DNA of 64,000 nucleotides from Fodinibius sediminis (GTDB lineage Bacteria; Bacteroidota; Rhodothermia; Balneolales; Balneolaceae): NCBI RefSeq assembly GCF_900182555.1, contig NZ_FXTH01000015.1, forward strand, positions 1-64,000, read 5' to 3'. Below are positions 1 through 8,935 of this stretch, piece by piece (the first letter of the stretch is position 1; every line of letters begins with the position of its first letter). A program made the translations under genes and the position numbers. The notes beneath the pieces were generated by a model. The model searched no databases, was not told the origin of the DNA, and saw nothing but the letters and a program-made list of their open reading frames with translations.

Positions 1-1
1 G

Positions 2-64
2 CAGCTAGCCATTCGATTTGGAGATCGGCTGCCACTGGACTTAACCCGTAACCCTGAAAAATAA
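2..64 (+). other. Possible C-terminal tail of a plus-strand gene entering from the left
   Basis: Frame 2 is open from the first base and ends at a TAA at 62-64, giving about 20 residues with a normal composition (ending in LTRNPEK). It would converge on the DUF6527 gene. The stretch is too short to recognise a family, and another frame also stays open for 16 codons, so it may be chance. If real, it belongs to the left part of the island or to the chromosome beyond it. Confidence 0.2.
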
Positions 65-116
65 ACAAACCGGACAGAGTTTAGTTTACACACCCAAATT
101 TTAAGATGAATCAGAA

Positions 117-524
117 TCATTGATTTACGACTGATGGATGTTGGCCAGTATTTTGGCACCACTTAACTACTCCATCTTTTACCCAAAAATGACTCTGGCA
201 TCCTTTATTCCTCCATACTGAAGGATGAAGGGTCGGCCTGCTATTTTTAGAAGTATTAAAAGTTCAATTGGGATTTTGTTCTTTTTTTAGCGGCAAAGTA
301 ATGACCTCATGACAGCCACAAGGGCATTCAAAAAGAGCCCAATACAGTTTGTCTTTATATTTTACAACTATAAACTCTTCAGTATTGACCGAACTTTTTT
401 GGGGAGTTGACTCAACAAATTTTATTGTTTGATAGTAAACATTCCTTGTGCTTTCGTCATCAAAAAGAAATGGTAAAACCCTTTTGATGAAACCGATAAG
501 CTTTTTTTTAAGCCAATTAAACAT
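117..524 (-). pseudogene. DUF6527 protein of a Ubl-conjugation operon, interrupted by an in-frame TGA
   Basis: This is the fourth gene of the ubiquitin-like operon. It starts at ATG 524 and overlaps the end of the JAMM-E1 gene by 8 bases. Codons 1-86 carry a basic, hydrophobic N-terminus and the motif CPCGCH (C67, C69, C71). Codon 87 is TGA (264-266). Reading on in the same frame for 48 codons, to a TGA at 117-119, restores the rest of the family pattern: HPSVW (from H100), CQSHF (from C109) and WC (122-123). In relatives as I remember them, a Trp stands where the stop is, so a TGG to TGA change is the simplest explanation. DUF6527 proteins accompany E1/E2/Ubl genes and, from memory, are metal-dependent peptidases or accessory factors (BubD) in Bub pathways. 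The 86-residue product would lack the second half of the metal and active-site motifs. A sequencing error or readthrough cannot be excluded. Confidence 0.8.
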
Positions 525-1977
525 TACTCGGGACTTTGCCTAATTGTGGAGTTTCCAGCCGATTTTTCCCTTCATCTTTAAGTAGTATAGTGCCTTCTTG
601 ACAATAGATGCACTCAGAATCTATCCTGGGCTTATTACTATGAATATCCATATGTACAAAATCAATCCAGATGTTGTCTTGCCTTAAATCCGAAGGTAAT
701 TTTCTAAATTGACTTATCAAATTCATTAATGTTGCAACAGCATTATTTGCGGTTGCACTCGTAAAAGGACCTATGCCCGGCGATTGTACGTCACTTCCAA
801 AGATATAGTAATCTTTTGCTAAGGTCTCGGAATCTAACTCTCTTAGCTCTGGATTTTCCTTTAACTTCTGTTCTCTATAAAGCTTCTGATTATTTACTAC
901 ATTTTGGCATCTTAAACACGCTCCCGACTCAGGTAATATACAACTGACTCGACCTTTCTGAGTTCTTAAACGAGGAATTCCGTTAGAGTCATCTTCTACA
1001 TTCCCAGACATCCCAGAGTCTATATATACTTGACCATAATAATACATCGCTTGATTTAGATAATCTCTGCTTTGAACACTATCTGTGCACCCAAATATGA
1101 TATCAGCACTGGATAAAGCATCTATAGCTTTTCCTGTTTCACCTAAGTATTCCGGTATTGCTTTCACAGTTACCTCTAAACCTAAATCTTCAATAAATGA
1201 AGATAATGCCTCAGCTTTATTTGAGGATATGTCCTTATTAACATAGCCCCTGACTCGATTCATATTAGTTTTATCTAGCTCATCACCATCAATAAGTATT
1301 AGTTCGCCAATCCCTGTTCTTGCTAATAGGGTTGCAACTGGTGAGCCCGTTCCACCTAAGCCTACCACTGCAACTCGGAGTGATTGAAGTTTTGCGTTAA
1401 ATGGCTTGCCAAATGCTGCTTCTTGACGTTTAAGATTTTTAGATGTTTGATTCGGCGTTTTAATTCCTTGAAGATCTACCTTGTCTGAAAGGATACCTAT
1501 ATGCCTTACCTTTTTAGCCTGGCTTGGTTGTTGGCCATGTCTGACTCTTCCAATCCATTGCCTATCAACCAGTACCAATGATACCAAATAAGAGCCTTCC
1601 CCATTGCAACCAGACAAACCATAAAGAATATTTTTCTCGTTAGTGTCATCTCTCGAAGAAAAATCTACAAATCCATCTGGATGATTGTGGACGAAACCTA
1701 ATTCCAGGTTTTCATTTTCACAACGGTAATATATTTCTGGAAATTGACGCATATTTATCTTCATATGCGTTTTTGAGCTCTCAATTATCCACTCCTCGGT
1801 CATCTTTATTATATCAACAGCAACGAACCTATCTGACTTTGGAAGATCCTTAATAGGTCTTGAAAACCGTCGGAATAAAATAATTGCACCCCGCTCATGT
1901 CCATGGGGATGTCCAGTTAACCAATCTTTAAGATCTTCTTCCTGCGAACCTAGTAAGGTTATTCTTGGGTTGTTCAT
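517..1977 (-). CDS. JAMM peptidase-E1 (ThiF-like) fusion of a bacterial ubiquitin-like conjugation system
   Basis: The 486-residue protein has two enzymes in one chain. Residues about 20-150 form a JAB/JAMM metalloprotease: E28, then H97-N-H99-P with S107 and D110, a perfect HxH-x7-SxxD zinc motif. JAMM enzymes trim Ubl precursors or remove Ubl from targets. Residues about 185-460 form an E1/ThiF adenylating domain: nucleotide loop GLGGTG at 206-211, D230 and D232, the conserved N..R ending at R241, C297-T-D299, and two zinc-type CxxC pairs (C354/C357 and C456/C459). An E1 activates the Ubl C-terminus with ATP. Its ATGA start overlaps the E2 stop, so translation is probably coupled. The gene is AT-rich compared with the chromosome to the right. 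The family match is clear from motifs. The target proteins and the biological role (phage defence is proposed for relatives) are inference. Confidence 0.9.
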   Translation of the reverse strand: MNNPRITLLGSQEEDLKDWLTGHPHGHERGAIILFRRFSRPIKDLPKSDRFVAVDIIKMTEEWIIESSKTHMKINMRQFPEIYYRCENENLELGFVHNHPDGFVDFSSRDDTNEKNILYGLSGCNGEGSYLVSLVLVDRQWIGRVRHGQQPSQAKKVRHIGILSDKVDLQGIKTPNQTSKNLKRQEAAFGKPFNAKLQSLRVAVVGLGGTGSPVATLLARTGIGELILIDGDELDKTNMNRVRGYVNKDISSNKAEALSSFIEDLGLEVTVKAIPEYLGETGKAIDALSSADIIFGCTDSVQSRDYLNQAMYYYGQVYIDSGMSGNVEDDSNGIPRLRTQKGRVSCILPESGACLRCQNVVNNQKLYREQKLKENPELRELDSETLAKDYYIFGSDVQSPGIGPFTSATANNAVATLMNLISQFRKLPSDLRQDNIWIDFVHMDIHSNKPRIDSECIYCQEGTILLKDEGKNRLETPQLGKVPSNV

Positions 1978-2393
1978 TGATTAGTATCTGGTTTGGTTAA
2001 AGCCCAAGTAATTCGATCAATAATTTTTTGAATATTATCTTCTTTTGGTTTCCAGGATTTGGGTTTATTCCAATGCCTTGACCATCGACAATATTCTTTA
2101 CCATCATAATGACGTGGATCAGTGCCATTTACATCAGAAGCTCTAGGAATGGCCTTGCCATCTGCTCTCTTTAAAACAGGATGTGTCCAAAACATGTTGT
2201 TACCCTGGGTATTATAGTTAGGTGGGATTTCTACTAAAACCTCCACCTCAGTCAGCGGGTCCCCGTCATGGACATATAATCCATCTTTTAAGGGGAAGTT
2301 TTTGAGAATTAAATACCTCTTGGACTCTTCTTCCTCATATTCTAATCCTGAACTCTCAAGAATTTCATAGTCTTCATCCAATAACAATGCCAT
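1974..2393 (-). CDS. E2-like protein (Prok-E2_E family)
   Basis: About 139 residues from ATG 2393; an in-frame GTG one codon earlier is possible. The upstream Ubl stop and this start share bases (TGATG) and the downstream start overlaps the stop (ATGA), so the three genes are coupled. Recognisable E2-fold pieces are the IPPNY strand-turn (about 57-61), a hydrophobic FWTHP segment (about 68-72) and the C-terminal block YCRWSRHW (about 101-108). This matches the bacterial E2 family found with Multi_ubiq proteins and JAMM-E1 fusions. The single cysteine (C102, or C103 from the GTG) is next to the WSRH motif and not in a canonical UBC active-site context, so whether the carrier residue is Cys or Ser/His is open. 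It would receive the Ubl from the E1 and pass it on. No separate E3 gene is seen. Confidence 0.85.
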   Translation of the reverse strand: MALLLDEDYEILESSGLEYEEEESKRYLILKNFPLKDGLYVHDGDPLTEVEVLVEIPPNYNTQGNNMFWTHPVLKRADGKAIPRASDVNGTDPRHYDGKEYCRWSRHWNKPKSWKPKEDNIQKIIDRITWALTKPDTNQ

Positions 2394-2632
2394 CACGAAC
2401 CAGGGGTTGAATCTGCAACTTGTGAGTAAAACTTCTCAATTCCGGGATCATCCAAATCTATCTTGTCGTCATCTTCTATTAATTCACCAGGTTCGCCGCG
2501 TCTTTTCAGAAATAAATCCATATTGTCAGGAATGCCTGGTGGTATTTCCCGTACTTCTTTTCCCGTGATATATTGCTTATCCCATTTATGGGGCTCATTT
2601 TCAATTTTAAACTGGAACTTGTCTTTAGACAT
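2393..2632 (-). CDS. Ubiquitin-like modifier (Multi_ubiq-type, single domain)
   Basis: The 79-residue protein is the first gene of the operon. It has the Multi_ubiq pattern: FKIENEPHKWDKQYITGKE, a central L-F-x-K-R-R-G segment, then DKIDLDDPGIEKF, which together predict one beta-grasp domain. The chain ends STPGS, a single glycine followed by serine, not the naked GG of ubiquitin. The glycine may become the reactive end after one residue is trimmed, possibly by the JAMM domain or DUF6527, or serine may be the true end; this is inference. The start follows a short AT-rich leader without a clear Shine-Dalgarno site. The gene precedes and overlaps the E2 gene. Confidence 0.85.
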   Translation of the reverse strand: MSKDKFQFKIENEPHKWDKQYITGKEVREIPPGIPDNMDLFLKRRGEPGELIEDDDKIDLDDPGIEKFYSQVADSTPGS

Positions 2633-2666
2633 AATACATCTGTTTTAATTAGATTTAATCGCTCAG

Positions 2667-2734
2667 AGATAGTTCCCTCTCGAAAAACTATCTGTGCATT
2701 AAACCTAAAGGGCAATGTGACAACATCCTGTCAC
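2667..2734. promoter_or_regulatory. Two perfect palindromes upstream of the Ubl operon
   Basis: The gap between the Ubl start (2632) and the next gene holds AGATAGTT (2667-2674) paired with AACTATCT (2686-2693), an 8-bp perfect inverted repeat with an 11-base spacer, and GTGACA (2717-2722) paired with TGTCAC (2729-2734), a 6-bp repeat with a 6-base spacer. Neither is followed by a T-run in either direction that would make a strong terminator. Their position suggests operator sites or a leader hairpin controlling the conjugation operon. The regulator is unknown. Confidence 0.4.
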
Positions 2735-2753
2735 CCCACTTGATTAGAAATTG

Positions 2754-3293
2754 TTAATAAAGAGAAGCTGAACAATTTACCGGCAAGGATTTAATCCCAA
2801 TCTGCTTCGCCACAAAATAGGTCGAATTTCCATCTATGATATCAAAAAGACCTTTTTCTTCTTCACTTGGTCTAATAGAAATAGGCTTTCGCCTAGGCAT
2901 TATCCCCTGATACGCTTGTCTCATGTAGATAAACCCATTGACAATGCCCTTCTGGCGCTTTCTTGTCAGCCGAAGCCAGCTGATAGGCACAATGGCCGTA
3001 GCTTTATTCATATCAAAGAAACAATCTAGCCGGTTGGGGTCCATGCAGAACATACGCTGGTAATTTTGGAGGTACGTCCCAACTTGTTCCATATTGATCC
3101 AACCAGTGAGAGGTACCTCTACTAGCTCATTATTAGTATAGCTGATTTGTATTAACTGACCTGTTTTATCTAAACATAGATACAGTTTATTGTAGTCATG
3201 ATACTGGCGGTTGATTTCATTGAGATGATCAGTGAAATTGTGCAACAAAGTAGATGGATTACTGGTATCGGCAGTTGCTTTCATATATACCAT
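2754..3293 (-). CDS. Uncharacterised protein with a C-terminal ParB/Srx-like nuclease-type domain
   Basis: 179 residues. The N-terminal 130 residues are unrecognised. Near the C-terminus, residues about 138-172 read like the core of ParB/sulfiredoxin-fold domains: a PISI strand, a short acidic loop, then FDIIDGNSTYF (150-160) with D154-G-N156, followed by VAKQIGIKSLPV. ParB-like domains bind nucleotides and act in partitioning, DNA modification or nicking. Only the core motif is visible, so the activity is uncertain. The gene abuts the upstream gene (TAG directly followed by ATG) and so is co-transcribed with it. Its stop is about 120 bases before the Ubl gene in the same orientation, so read-through into the conjugation operon is possible. 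Confidence 0.55.
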   Translation of the reverse strand: MVYMKATADTSNPSTLLHNFTDHLNEINRQYHDYNKLYLCLDKTGQLIQISYTNNELVEVPLTGWINMEQVGTYLQNYQRMFCMDPNRLDCFFDMNKATAIVPISWLRLTRKRQKGIVNGFIYMRQAYQGIMPRRKPISIRPSEEEKGLFDIIDGNSTYFVAKQIGIKSLPVNCSASLY

Positions 3294-3608
3294 CTATAGG
3301 TTTTCCTCCTGCGGATTATCCCTAATTAGCCTAATTATGTTATCCACTTCCGACTTTTTGCAAAGCTTAATAGCTTTTCGACCATTTTGGATGTTTCGAC
3401 CATAGCTTCGGACCGTCAACAGCTCGCGATATCCGCATCGATAGAAAGAGGTGCGGGAAATACGGCCGAGCTGCTCACACATATAACTGATCGCTTCTCC
3501 AATCGTCATGAAATCCTCGTTTTGGGAGGGGTTGTTTGGGACTGGAGAGAGCTGGTTTTCAGGATTTTCGAAATTAGACATAACCTTTCTTATTTTCTTA
3601 GACGCCAT
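3294..3608 (-). CDS. Small probable DNA-binding protein (helix-turn-helix)
   Basis: 104 residues, starting at ATG 3608; a second Met is 9 codons later. The central segment (about residues 32-75: MTIGEAISYMCEQLGRISR and what follows) resembles excisionase/MerR-type wHTH proteins, with a basic tail. It starts inside the TCTTAG repeat zone and is transcribed away from the AAA+ replication gene, so it may bind or regulate the repeats. It abuts the next gene without a gap. The family cannot be named. Confidence 0.5.
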   Translation of the reverse strand: MASKKIRKVMSNFENPENQLSPVPNNPSQNEDFMTIGEAISYMCEQLGRISRTSFYRCGYRELLTVRSYGRNIQNGRKAIKLCKKSEVDNIIRLIRDNPQEENL

Positions 3609-3641
3609 AGTTAAGTGTAGTAAAAACTGATAGTTAACCGC

Positions 3642-3721
3642 CTAAGAAATCGCCAAAGATTCATCTTAGATGTCTTAGGCCAATCTTAGAGTTCTTAGGC
3701 GCTTCTTAGGTGATTTCTTAG
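3642..3721. repeat. TCTTAG iteron-like array with AT-rich flank (candidate origin of the element)
   Basis: TCTTAG occurs at 3664, 3673, 3684, 3693, 3704 and 3716. The first five form a 20-base period of paired hexamers, e.g. TCTTAGATGTCTTAGGC then TCTTAGAGTTCTTAGGC. Inverted copies (CTAAGA) lie at 3642 and 3794, and another direct copy lies at 3596. From 3722 to about 3765 the sequence is almost pure A/T. Repeats plus an AT-rich tract just downstream of a replication-type AAA+ gene is the layout of iteron origins. An operator array for a regulator is the alternative. Confidence 0.6.
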
Positions 3722-3854
3722 ATATATTATTATTAACTAACTTATTATTTATTATATACTTACAGGGGGTTGTTTTGTGGTAGAAATGAGGATCTAAGAA
3801 AATAAGATGCTTTTTTATAATTCTTGGATAATCTCATATTTCCCAAAAAAACTC

Positions 3855-5993
3855 CTAAAATGGAGGTTCAATTTTTGAACCATTCATTACAATGTGTTCA
3901 TCCTTTTGTTTGGATTGTTGTTTCATCATGATCACCGCTTCTTCTCGTTTGCCAAAGGCCCGAAGCCAGGAGGGTGTTAAGTTTTTTCTGGGCAAGTGAT
4001 ACCCGTGTCGGTTTTCTTGGACAGTTCCTTTTACGGGATCTTCATAGCTGTAATAATTGGTTTTTGCCTTTCCGTGCAGGTCTAAGGCTTCTATTTCTTC
4101 ACGGACAATATCCTGACTGATATACTCGCGTCCTTTATTGTAATTGGTGTAAGCGTCCCAGATACCGCTCCAATACATGACGAGTCCATCTTTGCTGTTC
4201 CATCCATAGTAGCGTTTCGGCAGTTCCCCGTTATCATTCATGATCTCAATACTGGCCAAAAACTGTTGCAGAGGTGTTTGGTGGACTTCCTTTTCAGCTG
4301 AATTAGCTAAAAAAGTTACTCCGTAGCGGAATATTTCTGTGGATGTGCGATTCTCACGGAGCAGTTGTTGCATCTCCTGCCGATCTTCGGGGCTTACTGT
4401 ATGTTTGTTATCCTCCTCCAAGGATTGTTGAACAAATTCCGCGAATTCCACATCACTGGGCCGACAAACAAATAGATCCACCGTAATAAGGGCCGCCATA
4501 TTTTCAATTTGACGGTCTTTAATCTGGAACCGAACCCCTTCCTGGTCACTTCTCCGTTCTAACTCTTCCTCCACGGCTTCGGTCAGCAGGCGTTTGATCC
4601 AAAGCAGCTCATTTTTGAATAGCTTTCGATTGAAGTCATTAAACTTGTAGAGCAAAGACAGAAAGAGCTGCTGCATTTCCTTTTTATGATTATCAAACCA
4701 CCACAGGTTGTGAACTGAACCCCGTTTTTCTTTGGCATATTCAATCATGATACATCGCGACCGGAAGTGGTCTTCGGTCGGTTTGTAGTTTGAGATGAAC
4801 ATGAGCTGCGATCGTACGGGGCTCCAGGCGTTTTTAGATCGATCATGGGAGGCACTAACCCCACGTTGTCGCAACTCGTACCACATGTTAAATACCTGTG
4901 GCGTGATCTTGCCTTTGCCGGGGACAAACTCGTCCATGATCACGGGAATCTTACTGTGGTTGGCCAGTTTGTTTTCTGCGGACTTAAGCGTAGGATTGGA
5001 ATCTACATCTGTAAACGATTGCCCAAAGAAATTGAGCATAATTTGAGACAATTGTCCTTTACCCGTGGAGGGTTCTCCATACAGGTATAGAAAAACTACA
5101 TGTTTAAACACATCGTAGGTCTCGTCGAAAAACAGAAAGGAGAGCATATAGGAGAAAATAAGATAGCCCTCGGCCTTCTTCTCAGGTTGTTGCCCAGCAA
5201 TTAGTTCTCCGAATTTATCACGGACTGTGTCAGTAAAATACCGGAGCTCATTACCGGTAAAAAGCTGATGTTCGTCGTCGGTATGAAATCCATCCTTGGC
5301 TGGGAGCAAATCTAATAGTGGCGCCGGTTCAATCCGGCCAGGCTTCACGTAAAAGGTGGTGTCGGCAGCTACCATCGGGAACAGCCCGGAATCCGGATTT
5401 GGGGCGATGATATACTGGGGTTCCCTCAGGTGATCATTGGGGATGTTGATAAGTGCATTTCGGGTTAGGTAAAACTTGTAGCCGTGATGCTCGATAAATC
5501 CGTAATAATTGAACTCATACACCGTCTGGGGCTGCCACCGGTTACACAAGAAGCTCATAAAGAAGAGGATTTCATCATCGGATTTGAACCGGGCCGACTG
5601 GTAGGAATGCTTAAAGATCTGAATCTGGAATGCCTTCTTGGACAACAGGTCCTCCGGTTCCAGTACGAAGAGCTCGCTTTGAGTCAGGGTCCTCGACTCT
5701 GGGGTAAGCCAGCTCACCTGGCATTCGTAAAGCGTAGAATCCCATTTAAGGGTCTCGGGATTGTAGCGGATAATCTTGGAGTGGATTTCAATGTCGAAGG
5801 TACCGATTCGGCGGCTGGTGCCATCGGTTTCATTACGGTACCATCCAAAATCCAGTGGATCGGAGCTGTCGATATATTCAAACGGTTCTTTTTGCGTATC
5901 AGAAAGAGCAGATGGTTCAGAGTCATCTGGGCTGTTTCGAGTGTTAGATGATAGGAGCTTCAGAGAGCCTTCCCGGGTGTTGCTGCTGCTCAT
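3855..5993 (-). CDS. D5/SF3-like AAA+ replication ATPase of the mobile element
   Basis: 712 residues. Residues 1-290 have no clear family. A P-loop ATPase core follows: Walker A GEPSTGKG (306-313), Walker B VIMDEF (351-356, with D354-E355), sensor FISNY (399-403) and a likely arginine finger at R411/R413. A helical C-terminal region of about 270 residues follows, ending in basic and Lys/Gln-rich segments. This is the pattern of phage/plasmid D5-like or DUF5906-type primase-associated helicases used to start replication of mobile elements. No primase active site is recognisable in the N-terminus, though a divergent one cannot be excluded. It ends 130 bases before the TCTTAG array. The first 50 bases overlap the upstream small gene, so it is co-transcribed with it. 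Confidence 0.7.
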   Translation of the reverse strand: MSSSNTREGSLKLLSSNTRNSPDDSEPSALSDTQKEPFEYIDSSDPLDFGWYRNETDGTSRRIGTFDIEIHSKIIRYNPETLKWDSTLYECQVSWLTPESRTLTQSELFVLEPEDLLSKKAFQIQIFKHSYQSARFKSDDEILFFMSFLCNRWQPQTVYEFNYYGFIEHHGYKFYLTRNALINIPNDHLREPQYIIAPNPDSGLFPMVAADTTFYVKPGRIEPAPLLDLLPAKDGFHTDDEHQLFTGNELRYFTDTVRDKFGELIAGQQPEKKAEGYLIFSYMLSFLFFDETYDVFKHVVFLYLYGEPSTGKGQLSQIMLNFFGQSFTDVDSNPTLKSAENKLANHSKIPVIMDEFVPGKGKITPQVFNMWYELRQRGVSASHDRSKNAWSPVRSQLMFISNYKPTEDHFRSRCIMIEYAKEKRGSVHNLWWFDNHKKEMQQLFLSLLYKFNDFNRKLFKNELLWIKRLLTEAVEEELERRSDQEGVRFQIKDRQIENMAALITVDLFVCRPSDVEFAEFVQQSLEEDNKHTVSPEDRQEMQQLLRENRTSTEIFRYGVTFLANSAEKEVHQTPLQQFLASIEIMNDNGELPKRYYGWNSKDGLVMYWSGIWDAYTNYNKGREYISQDIVREEIEALDLHGKAKTNYYSYEDPVKGTVQENRHGYHLPRKNLTPSWLRAFGKREEAVIMMKQQSKQKDEHIVMNGSKIEPPF

Positions 5994-6201
5994 GTAGTTG
6001 TTGTTGAGATATTAAAATTTTGTGTTCGCTCACATAGCTGAGCTTGTAGAGATCATTTCCATACCCATGGATCACCCACAGATCGTAGCCTTCGACGATC
6101 TGTGTTTCGATGAGACGGACAGTTTCTTTGCAATGGATACCATCGCCGTTAAGAAATTCAATGGTATCCCCAAGGGTATAGCGGGTGCGTATAGTAGCCA
6201 T
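5944..6201 (-). CDS. Small hypothetical protein of the element
   Basis: 85 residues, unrecognised. The first 60 residues look like a small beta-barrel (alternating hydrophobics: DTIEFLNGDG, ETVRLIETQI, DLWVIHGYG). The tail is Gln/His-rich. It overlaps the AAA+ gene by 50 bases and follows the 6210-6509 gene by 8 bases, so it sits in the middle of a three-gene replication or early operon. The overlap is long, so either its stop or the next start could be misjudged. Confidence 0.5.
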   Translation of the reverse strand: MATIRTRYTLGDTIEFLNGDGIHCKETVRLIETQIVEGYDLWVIHGYGNDLYKLSYVSEHKILISQQQLHEQQQHPGRLSEAPII

Positions 6202-6704: not shown

Positions 6705-7115
6705 GTGGAAGAAATTGAACAGGATATCCTCCAGGAAAATATTCAATATCTGCTGGATGAATACTATGATGGGAACGTTTCAGAAATGCAACGCCAAACG
6801 GGAGCGAATCGCTCCGTCATATCTGAGCTGAAGAATGGCACGAAAAGTGAAGTGAATAGCTCCACGTTACGTCATTTTGCGGAGGCAGGTATTAATATAA
6901 ATTGGCTGTTGACTGGAGAAGGGGCCCATTTTGTGATCGGCAATGAGGAGGAACTTAAAACCGAGCTGAAGCAAAAGCAGCTGCTTGAGAATAGAATGGT
7001 GGAGATCAAAGGATTGGTGTCAGAGATCGATCAGCAGTTGGAAGAACATCCGGAGCTAAAACTGGATCCGGATGTTATGTCAGCACTGTTGGACTTGCTT
7101 AAAAGAGCACTGTAG
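6705..7115 (+). CDS. Cro/CI-type repressor with coiled-coil C-terminus
   Basis: 136 residues, starting at GTG 6705 with an AAGGA site about 8 bases upstream. Residues about 10-65 form an XRE-like helix-turn-helix (SEMQRQTGANRSVISELKNG as the recognition unit), ending in the typical NWLLTGEG turn of Bacteroidota phage-type repressors. Residues about 80-135 are charged and heptad-like, a probable dimerising coiled coil, with no LexA-like protease domain. It is the only plus-strand gene of the island, divergent from the replication operon. It most likely holds the element in the integrated state by binding the CGGTAA palindrome. Confidence 0.75.
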   Translation: MEEIEQDILQENIQYLLDEYYDGNVSEMQRQTGANRSVISELKNGTKSEVNSSTLRHFAEAGININWLLTGEGAHFVIGNEEELKTELKQKQLLENRMVEIKGLVSEIDQQLEEHPELKLDPDVMSALLDLLKRAL

Positions 7116-7506: not shown

Positions 7507-8673
7507 CTAACCAACCTGACTTTTTATAAGCCCATTTCTACTGGCGGTATTGAGCAAATCATTAGCAACCAGGTGGACATATTTGTTGGTTACCTCCAAG
7601 CTTTTGTGTCCCAACATATTCTTCACTTCTATTACATTAAATCCGTTGCGTAATAGAAAGGTAGCACAAGAGTGCCGGAGACCGTGAAAATGGATAGAGT
7701 CTTTTAGCTTGGCTTCTTCGGTTGCGTAATACTTGAAGCGTTTTGATACATTATCACCCATCATAGCAAGTTCACCATTGGGTATGGATCGGGGGCTGGG
7801 GAAAACAAGTCCCTTTTTAGGTTTCCCATTAAATTTGTGCCACTTACTTAATTCCTTATACAGCTTATCAAAAATGGGAACCGTACGTTCATAACCATTT
7901 TTTGTGTCGGTAACTCTGAGAAATCGATTCTTCAGATTTACATGCTCCCATCGAAGTTGAATAATCTCTTTTCTGCGAAGTCCGGTGTAAAAGGCTAAGG
8001 TAATAAGCGGGATAAACCAATGTTGTTTTTGCTCATAGGTAGAGATCGCGCCAGACTTTTGGTGTTTCTTCTGATATGCCTTGAACTTTTTAAAAATTTC
8101 GTTGAGCTCTTCTTCATCAATGATTTTGTCAACAAGATTATCTCTGGTCTTAGGCAAGCCGACCTTGTCACAAGGATTGACTTCTAACACTTCCTTTTCG
8201 ACGATCCAGTTAAAGAAAGCTTTTAAGTGTTTTAGGTAGTTCCTTTTTGAAGCGTTTGCCAATTTAGGTCGTAGGCAAAAAGATCTGATATCATTGGCAT
8301 CAATCATTGTGACTGGCATACTATGGCCAACCTGATCCATGAATTGCCGAATGATGTATTTATATGTTCTTCTCGTTTTCTCAGTAACGTTAGTTTTCTC
8401 CCTCAAGAATTGCTTCTGAAGGGTATTGATTATTGGACTGGTTAGAGAAGTTCCTTCGAGCTCTTGCTCTTTTTCATAATCCTGCAGATTCCAATTGTCA
8501 TCAAATGGATTTATTTGACCGGCATCATAAAGCTTCTCGTATTCAAGCTTCTTTTGCTCGGCTATCTTTTTGTATTTCGTACCGAGGGCATAGGTCTTTT
8601 TATAAGACTTACCATTTAAGGTGGATTTAAAAACTATCGAGTAGTACCCGTTTCTCTTGGTTAAACTTGCCAT
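7507..8673 (-). CDS. int: Tyrosine recombinase (integrase)
   Basis: 388 residues, full length. It has an N-terminal Arm-type region (about 1-60), a SAM-like core-binding domain (about 80-175) and a catalytic domain with all expected residues: R233 (GLRRKE), K258, H330-x-x-R333 (HFHGLRH), H355 (LGHKS) and nucleophile Y365 (NKYVH). It inserts and excises circular DNA at an att site. It lies about 190 bases from the 3' end of tRNA-Arg and points away from it, the classic arrangement of an element integrated at a tRNA gene. All catalytic residues are present, so it may still be active. Confidence 0.93.
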   Translation of the reverse strand: MASLTKRNGYYSIVFKSTLNGKSYKKTYALGTKYKKIAEQKKLEYEKLYDAGQINPFDDNWNLQDYEKEQELEGTSLTSPIINTLQKQFLREKTNVTEKTRRTYKYIIRQFMDQVGHSMPVTMIDANDIRSFCLRPKLANASKRNYLKHLKAFFNWIVEKEVLEVNPCDKVGLPKTRDNLVDKIIDEEELNEIFKKFKAYQKKHQKSGAISTYEQKQHWFIPLITLAFYTGLRRKEIIQLRWEHVNLKNRFLRVTDTKNGYERTVPIFDKLYKELSKWHKFNGKPKKGLVFPSPRSIPNGELAMMGDNVSKRFKYYATEEAKLKDSIHFHGLRHSCATFLLRNGFNVIEVKNMLGHKSLEVTNKYVHLVANDLLNTASRNGLIKSQVG

Positions 8674-8844: not shown

Positions 8845-8861
8845 GAAGTGTTTTAGAGGAG

Positions 8862-8935
8862 TACGCCCGGAAGGATTCGAACCCTCAGCCTTCTGATCCG
8901 AAGTCAGACGCTCTATCCAGTTGAGCTACGGGCGC
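8862..8935 (-). tRNA. tRNA-Arg (anticodon TCG)
   Basis: A 74-base cloverleaf: acceptor stem GCGCCCG/CGGGCGT (first pair G-T), D-arm GCTC..GAGC, anticodon stem TCTGA/TCAGA with loop CTTCGGA (anticodon TCG), T-arm GAGGG-TTCGAAT-CCTTC. CCA is not encoded. Its 3' end faces the integrase, so it is the probable attachment gene, with the 3' half restored by the element. Confidence 0.95.

Follow-up and report, generated by a model that had tools for sequence, protein, structure and literature searches.

A Bub-type ubiquitin-like operon with an interrupted last gene, probably exchangeable cargo of an integrative element in Fodinibius sediminis

Introduction

Bil operons encode a ubiquitin-like modifier (Ubl), an E1, an E2 and, as a separate protein, a JAB-type peptidase, and an antiphage effect is known for them. 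Conjugation by Bub systems reportedly proceeds through a serine ester (oxyester), and BubE is said to be a serine peptidase. Passages of PMC1779556 (Iyer et al., 2006) describe type 6e operons, their mobility and, in one species, a solo Ubl, and take the fourth protein for a metal-binding finger. According to the review PMC12687455, such systems, Bub among them, seem to act mainly in phage defence, and a section of PMC13373217 (2026) counts 544 Bub operons. Here we describe a Bub-type operon at the start of contig C15 (92 kb; NZ_FXTH01000015.1) from the genome of Fodinibius sediminis (4.43 Mb in 50 contigs); the first 64,000 nucleotides of this contig form the window that was analyzed.

We consider it likely that this Bub operon is exchangeable cargo of an integrative element, that its last gene is disabled and that it takes part, probably, in a stress-triggered defence of the element's host. 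The sequence shows intact bubA, bubB and bubCD genes and an interrupted bubE, in a position that sister elements fill with different cargo, including many defence genes; defence appears to be the likeliest role of the operon.

Results

Gene content and conserved motifs of the operon

The operon and the transposase-gene fragment beside it are laid out as follows (aa, amino acids):

2393..2632, minus strand: bubA, a one-domain ubiquitin-like modifier, 79 aa (Multi_ubiq 1.5e-9, over the Pfam cut-off)
1974..2396, minus strand: bubB, an E2-like protein, 140 aa from a GTG start (Prok-E2_E 4e-32, over the Pfam cut-off)
517..1977, minus strand: bubCD, 486 aa, a fusion of an N-terminal JAMM peptidase domain with a ThiF/E1 domain (ThiF 3.9e-40, over the Pfam cut-off)
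264..524, minus strand: bubE (DUF6527), an 86-aa product with an in-frame TGA at codon 87 (DUF6527 27.3 bits, cut-off 23.6)
117..263, minus strand: remainder of the bubE frame past the in-frame stop, with likeness to the second half of DUF6527
1..95, plus strand: terminal part of a repeated transposase gene (resembling IS256 by eye), 21 bp from the old bubE stop

Each gene of the series bubA-bubB-bubCD-bubE overlaps its successor. Direct reading of the sequence finds the start-stop overlaps TGATG and ATGA and, at the fourth gene, ATGTTTAA, which suggest that the components are produced together. An alternative bubB start, an ATG overlapping the bubA stop, gives 139 aa. An earlier sequence-only reading of this DNA had described three overlapping genes for a Ubl, an E2 and a JAMM-E1 fusion; the open reading frames (ORFs), overlaps and motifs are all present, on the minus strand. 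Among the profile searches it had proposed, Multi_ubiq, Prok-E2_E, ThiF and DUF6527 all matched over the Pfam cut-off, whereas JAB reached 13.8 bits against a cut-off of 25, with the JAMM motif HxHx6-8SxxD nevertheless present. Assignment of the operon to the Bub type agrees with the nearest solved E1, Citrobacter BubCD (9ea4, 2.7e-21), which is the best match to BubCD in the PDB. The best solved relative of BubB is Citrobacter BubB (9eae, 1e-4), and the PDB chain closest to BubA is the multi-ubiquitin protein 9d59 (6.9e-11).

A scan of contigs matched at least 593 stretches, of which 389 encoded relatives; the best 80 (78 loci) were kept, together with a sample of 12 of 298 plasmid records, and the counts given here refer to these 78 genome loci and 12 plasmid regions. 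BubA ends in ADSTPG-S, that is, in a C-terminal Gly followed by a one-residue tail (Ser). This Gly lines up across BubA proteins in the alignment, and a tail of 1-6 residues follows it in 20 of the 25 operons of the window's clade. BubB carries a WSRH motif, whose serine is Ser106, and WSRH recurs in 90/90 operons with an E2 match. A Cys three residues ahead of the motif Ser is found in 19/25 operons of the clade and 0/65 elsewhere; a role for it as the nucleophile was considered and dropped because it is missing in the other 6/25.

In BubCD, the JAMM residues E28, H97, H99, S107 and D110 are invariant in 14/14 aligned proteins, as are the GxGGxG motif and two CxxC pairs of the E1 part; the Asp of CTD is also kept. 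The HxHx6-8SxxD motif is present in all 91 BubCD sequences. A sequence pattern for the presumed E1 loop, placed by eye against the cysteine of ThiF, matched 89 of the 91 sequences, and none of these has a Cys there; individual inspection covered the loops of the window's clade.

The interrupted bubE gene

The operon had been called complete in the sequence-only reading, and for its last gene this did not hold: bubE is interrupted by a TGA at codon 87, and the same frame extends to position 117, coding for the conserved second half of DUF6527. The Pfam match of bubE covers profile positions 2-25 of 63 only; that of an intact 131-aa relative (L098/L059) spans positions 2-63 (1.3e-22). Past the stop, the frame matches positions 78-119 of 120 (1.9e-18) in a profile made from an alignment (A4) that includes the window row. 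The TGA codon aligns with a tryptophan conserved in 11/11 other BubE proteins. Across 71 intact BubE proteins this Trp is one of eight invariant residues, which also include a Pro-Ser pair and a His (Ser98 and His108 in L098 numbering), and the truncated window protein loses the invariant Ser and His. Four of the eight strands in the predicted fold of L098 BubE (mean pLDDT 85.7) are located past the stop position, so the 86-residue product would be without about half of the domain.

Intact BubE, defined as one open frame over at least 86 of 120 profile positions, was found in 86 of 90 testable operons: 74/77 genome loci (the 78 minus L117, which is truncated by its contig end), 12/12 plasmid loci and 0/1 for the window. 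BubE is encoded in L095 and L097 even where it is unannotated. The three other failures comprise frameshifts in L152, an in-frame TAA in L174, and a missing BubE with an altered BubCD end in L128. The lesions of L152, L174 and the window fall within ~10 profile positions of each other, which with three cases may be chance. Because 4/90 operons, the window included, are without an intact copy, intact BubE is usual for Bub and not defining. In another arrangement, seen in L105 (4995-6836), BubCD and BubE are fused in a single 613-aa frame.

The nonsense codon, the transposase-gene end 21 bp past the old bubE stop, and the broken (L152, L174) or missing (L128) BubE of other operons could together mark decaying cargo, a system on its way out beside an adjoining insertion sequence. 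Against this, bubA, bubB and bubCD retain full frames and invariant motifs, and we find decay rather doubtful. Since the frame past the stop bears no mark of prolonged decay, the lesion is either recent or an error. A sequencing or assembly error in an operon that is really complete would account for the conservation, in the same frame, of all the sequence past the TGA; three other operons carry independent BubE lesions, themselves possibly errors, and we hold an error here to be unlikely. The conserved frame, and the in-frame stop of L174 about six profile positions away, would also suit readthrough or recoding of the TGA to give two forms of BubE. However, bubA of the same operon also ends in TGA, and, since the L174 stop is a TAA and the L152 lesions are frameshifts, there is no common readthrough signal, which leaves this explanation very improbable.

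Cargo of the slot in sister elements

The operon had also been read as cargo on a tRNA-integrated element with an AT-rich composition of its own. Consistent with this, an integrase gene (7507-8673) adjoins a tRNA-Arg gene (8861-8935) whose 3' half has copies elsewhere in the genome, and the GC fraction is 0.37-0.39 over positions 1-3000 compared with 0.44-0.57 past 9 kb. Primase copies 82-96% identical to that of the element occur in six further genomes of the genus and in G397. In 7/7 sister loci (L052-L058), DNA similarity to the window stops at 2719-2794, just upstream of bubA. On the far side of the cargo, the sister elements share a second conserved module encoding a 331-aa protein, a transglutaminase, a peptidoglycan-binding protein, an ATPase and a 2,421-aa DarB-like protein.

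The slot was surveyed in 11 elements, 10 of them primase-bearing and one a decayed remnant, across 12 genomes of the genus; G397 and G395 were added after the first set, the latter chosen for its Multi_ubiq match. Ubiquitin-like operons, of three kinds, occupy four slots and a ThiF gene another; five contain restriction-modification (R-M) genes with AbiE genes or fragments, and in one nothing was recognised:

G000: Bub
G364, first copy (L052:2459-6453; primase 96%): CapK/CapS-like genes and a split R-M gene, followed downstream by Ubl, E2-E1 fusion and JAB; also AbiEi
G364, second copy, and the decayed G395 slot: Multi_ubiq, DUF6791-ThiF and DUF6527, with AbiE genes or fragments
G286 (L053:143-2410): a 387-aa ThiF protein beside helix-turn-helix (HTH) and ImmA-like genes, cut by the contig start
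G348 and one G397 copy: R-M with AbiE genes or fragments
G151: R-M, AbiE genes or fragments, YobI-ATPase
G250: R-M, AbiE genes or fragments, Gabija-like genes
G081: R-M, AbiE genes or fragments, reverse transcriptase (RT)
G397, second copy: no slot gene recognised with the queries used

In L052, ThiF and Prok-JAB were over their Pfam cut-offs; the Ubl (DUF2604, 21.3 bits) and the E2 (UQ_con, 19.5 bits) were under theirs, of 25 and 27 respectively. CapK was named by gene order and length, with no Pfam match, and CapS by a winged-helix match alone. Multi_ubiq was detected in 5/92 genomes of the family and in 3/12 of the genus, all three on this element family and one on a decayed copy; G297 has two Multi_ubiq loci, on contigs other than those of its primase copies. 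Among ten more distant copies of the element, six (L183, L186-L190) have the 331-aa gene family ~0.75 kb past the primase gene, and in these the slot looks empty.

The carrier element

Upstream of the operon, the window contains the following element features:

2754..3293, minus strand: backbone gene, 179 aa, whose 3' end is the start of the cargo slot (sister-element similarity boundary)
3294..3608, minus strand: backbone gene, 104 aa, no family match
3855..5993, minus strand: primase/helicase-like backbone protein, 712 aa (weak: phrog_1829 DNA primase 0.0027; TIGR01613 0.017, under cut-off)
6705..7115, plus strand: HTH repressor-like protein (phrog_8 8.9e-7; HTH_19 6e-6, under cut-off)
7507..8673, minus strand: tyrosine integrase (Phage_integrase 1.2e-32; phrog_1 6.7e-57)
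8858..8935, minus strand: tRNA-Arg (TCG) at 8861-8935, with its 3' half as the attachment site (ARAGORN)

The host chromosome past the element (9000-64000) was covered by composition and tRNA scans. In the same genome, the 3' half of the tRNA-Arg is repeated at C21:35848 and C18:31286, each time followed by sequence unlike tRNA, and ARAGORN called a 78-nt tRNA-Arg over the L061 repeat and none over L062. Such half repeats running into unrelated sequence (L061, L062, L064) are signs of repeated or tandem integration at the target. In G364, ~44 kb separate the tRNA-Arg from the next tRNA-Arg-like copy.

The transposase-gene end at positions 1-95 has three other copies at 100% and three at 85-86% identity over ~95 bp; four or more of these six copies lie at contig ends, and L177 carries a 409-aa transposase ORF (350-1579). 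The repeat explains the contig break at the window start; as the window opens contig C15 with this sequence, the element is truncated at the contig end. In the window's genome the second module sits on contig C27, and a join between C15 and C27 is inferred. A pentapeptide-repeat protein with a C-terminal part that is hydrophobic by eye lies at the far end of the cargo slot on C27 (L077:3014-4135, plus strand). The second-module ATPase has a weak KaiC/Pox_A32 likeness, a transglycosylase is found there too (L065, L066, L067-L070, L193, C27), and the 2,421-aa DarB-like protein has methylase and helicase parts. In a scan of 20 backbone proteins (two sets of 10, three being mutual counterparts, hence ~17 families), no capsid, portal or terminase was recognised, and the idea that the carrier is a virus was set aside.

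Relatives and genomic neighbours

In a quick maximum-likelihood tree of 90 BubCD rows, rooted at the midpoint, the window falls in a deep clade of 24/90 rows (SH-aLRT 100, branch 1.49) and forms a set of five with L098, L099, L100 and L101 (support 97). By record titles, which are fallible for metagenome-assembled genomes, the clade spans Rhodothermota, Bacteroidota, Bacillota, Thermodesulfobacteriota, Myxococcota and Pseudomonadota, which favours frequent transfer. The gene order A-B-CD-E is also found in relatives. BubCD finds matches at 1e-12 in 124 of the 395 genomes of the phylum, most of them across the ThiF part, and the only close copy outside the window's genome is in G143 (68%; the next best reach 31-32%). 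G143 is the nearest Bub-bearing relative of the window within its family, and it gave no primase match.

Neighbours of seven clade loci, picked by eye as regulator- or defence-like, were tested with Pfam. WYL was matched in L103 and L118, GHKL ATPase in L104 and L114, an HsdR-like protein in L114 and an OLD-type nuclease in L121; the upstream proteins of L110 and L120 had no Pfam match. Upstream of the Bub operon of L098 (L059:13529-15033, the same locus), a WYL-type regulator and an LRAT-like protein are apparent by eye. In the existing annotation of the 12 plasmid regions, an ImmA/IrrE peptidase precedes the Ubl gene in nine, and three have likely defence genes within ~3.5 kb: DUF4433 and a macro domain in L086 (DarT/DarG-like in our own reading), a restriction enzyme with a methylase and a nucleotidyltransferase with a SAVED protein in L093, and an anti-phage dCTP deaminase in L097.

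In the survey of neighbours that the sequence-only reading had called for, some related operons lie near defence genes and near regulators of types described as DNA-damage-responsive. The sulfur-carrier or biosynthetic setting that it had named as a refutation was not encountered in the neighbourhoods inspected: no thiamine or molybdopterin genes turned up in the scan of element genes or near the operons in the 12 annotated plasmid regions, and BubA ends in TPGS, not GG. Single-protein queries of IMG/VR, which retrieve close relatives only, returned none for BubCD or for the ATPase and transglutaminase of the element. Fifteen phage-record matches to BubCD were set aside, as they cover 24-35% of it, inside the ThiF region.

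The WYL, HTH/ImmA or GHKL regulators adjoining related operons would suit a general response of host or element to stress or DNA damage rather than antiphage defence, which PMC13373217 leaves open. In contrast, the partners found in sister slots (R-M, AbiE, Gabija-like, RT) are classical defence genes. We regard such a general response as possible, with the odds against it.

Discussion

The motifs suggest how the system might work. Because the BubA Gly is followed by a tail, a peptidase would have to act first, and the JAMM domain of BubCD is the likely candidate: it would cut the terminal Ser off BubA, freeing Gly78. The ThiF domain would adenylate Gly78 using ATP, and the modifier would be transferred to BubB and then onto targets. 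Given the lack of an E1-loop Cys and the invariant Ser of the BubB motif, an oxyester rather than a thioester step seems likely. BubE would normally dismantle or trim conjugates, and without it the JAMM domain alone would remain to reverse tagging. BubE-dependent maturation of BubA was also considered; Ubl tails and Ubl-E2 fusions occur with BubE almost always there, which leaves the roles of the two peptidases inseparable in these data.

Opposed conjugating and deconjugating activities could also stabilise the element in the manner of an addiction system, as a passage of PMC1779556 proposes generally for such operons, and the mobile-element setting would agree with this. A strict pair would not tolerate the broken or missing BubE of 4/90 operons, a weak point given that the JAMM domain remains; all told, addiction seems improbable to us.

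Several observations weigh against our preferred interpretation, that of exchangeable cargo with a disabled bubE and a probable role in stress-triggered defence. The sequence-only reading credited some related operons with an antiphage effect, and this stands for Bil. For Bub, phage protection has not been demonstrated according to PMC13373217. Regulator queries had no match in positions 1-6000 of the window or in 22/24 other clade loci (chosen by identity), and the JAB score of the window is below its cut-off. Identity of bubE to five relatives is 50-60% past the stop versus 33-43% ahead of it; stronger conservation of the second half could by itself account for this, and the TGA may be a sequencing error. 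BubE has no solved structure and no fold match in the PDB (none at E <=0.001 with Foldseek; best Z 3.3 with VIA-align), which does not establish a new fold for the predicted model. Finally, no overlap was found between the ends of C15 and C27, and in four of the ten distant copies (L181, L182, L184, L185) the stretch retrieved yielded no 331-aa gene.

We suggest, tentatively and as a bolder proposal than the interpretation above, that this tRNA-Arg-targeting element family has a dedicated slot which repeatedly acquires mechanistically different ubiquitin-like operons (Bub; Ubl/E2-E1/JAB; Ubl/DUF6791-E1/DUF6527; a ThiF gene), tagging being a standard weapon of element against phage. Bub might also run as a one-way tagger, given up to four losses of BubE among 90 operons whose conjugation genes stayed largely intact. 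A slot that swaps Bub, other ubiquitin-like operons, R-M and AbiE is a natural set for a cargo-by-cargo comparison of phage defence, and operons with conjugation genes and no BubE offer a means to learn the purpose of BubE.

What is new here lies in the exchangeable slot and in the lesions of BubE, the Bub operon itself being of a known kind. Among the literature matches listed, whose coverage excludes most subscription journals, no paper dealt with an exchangeable ubiquitin-like cargo slot or with BubE loss. Unlike Bil, the window has its JAMM domain in one frame with the E1 (517-1977), and the best solved relatives of its BubCD and BubB are Bub proteins; BubA is distantly like Methylobacterium BilA (8u38, 0.047). 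The Ubl/DUF6791-ThiF/DUF6527 operons (sister elements L176 and L203; L204 and L205) share Multi_ubiq and DUF6527 with the window, as established by Pfam for L176, by phmmer for L203, and by a Multi_ubiq search with the rest by eye for L204 and L205. No E2 gene or JAMM was seen in them, DUF6791 being present instead, and they are probably the type 6e operons with 'domain X' in the passages of PMC1779556. Type 6e in that source resembles the window in combining a polyUbl, an E2/RWD-like domain, a JAB-E1 fusion and a metal-binding fourth protein. It differs in that its E2-like domain is deemed inactive there, whereas the window has a solo Ubl on an integrative element and a broken fourth gene.

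The closest described system is Citrobacter Bub (9EA4, 9EA5, 9EA8, 9EAE, 9EAV), which has the same gene order of Ubl, Prok-E2_E-type E2, JAMM-E1 and DUF6527. The match of the window BubCD to 9ea4 (2.7e-21) compares with 2.3e-39 for the Enterobacter locus L146 of the other clade, in keeping with the deep separate clade of the window. Compared with Citrobacter Bub, the window operon is set apart by a single Ubl domain, a clade-specific Cys before the E2 Ser and an interrupted bubE.

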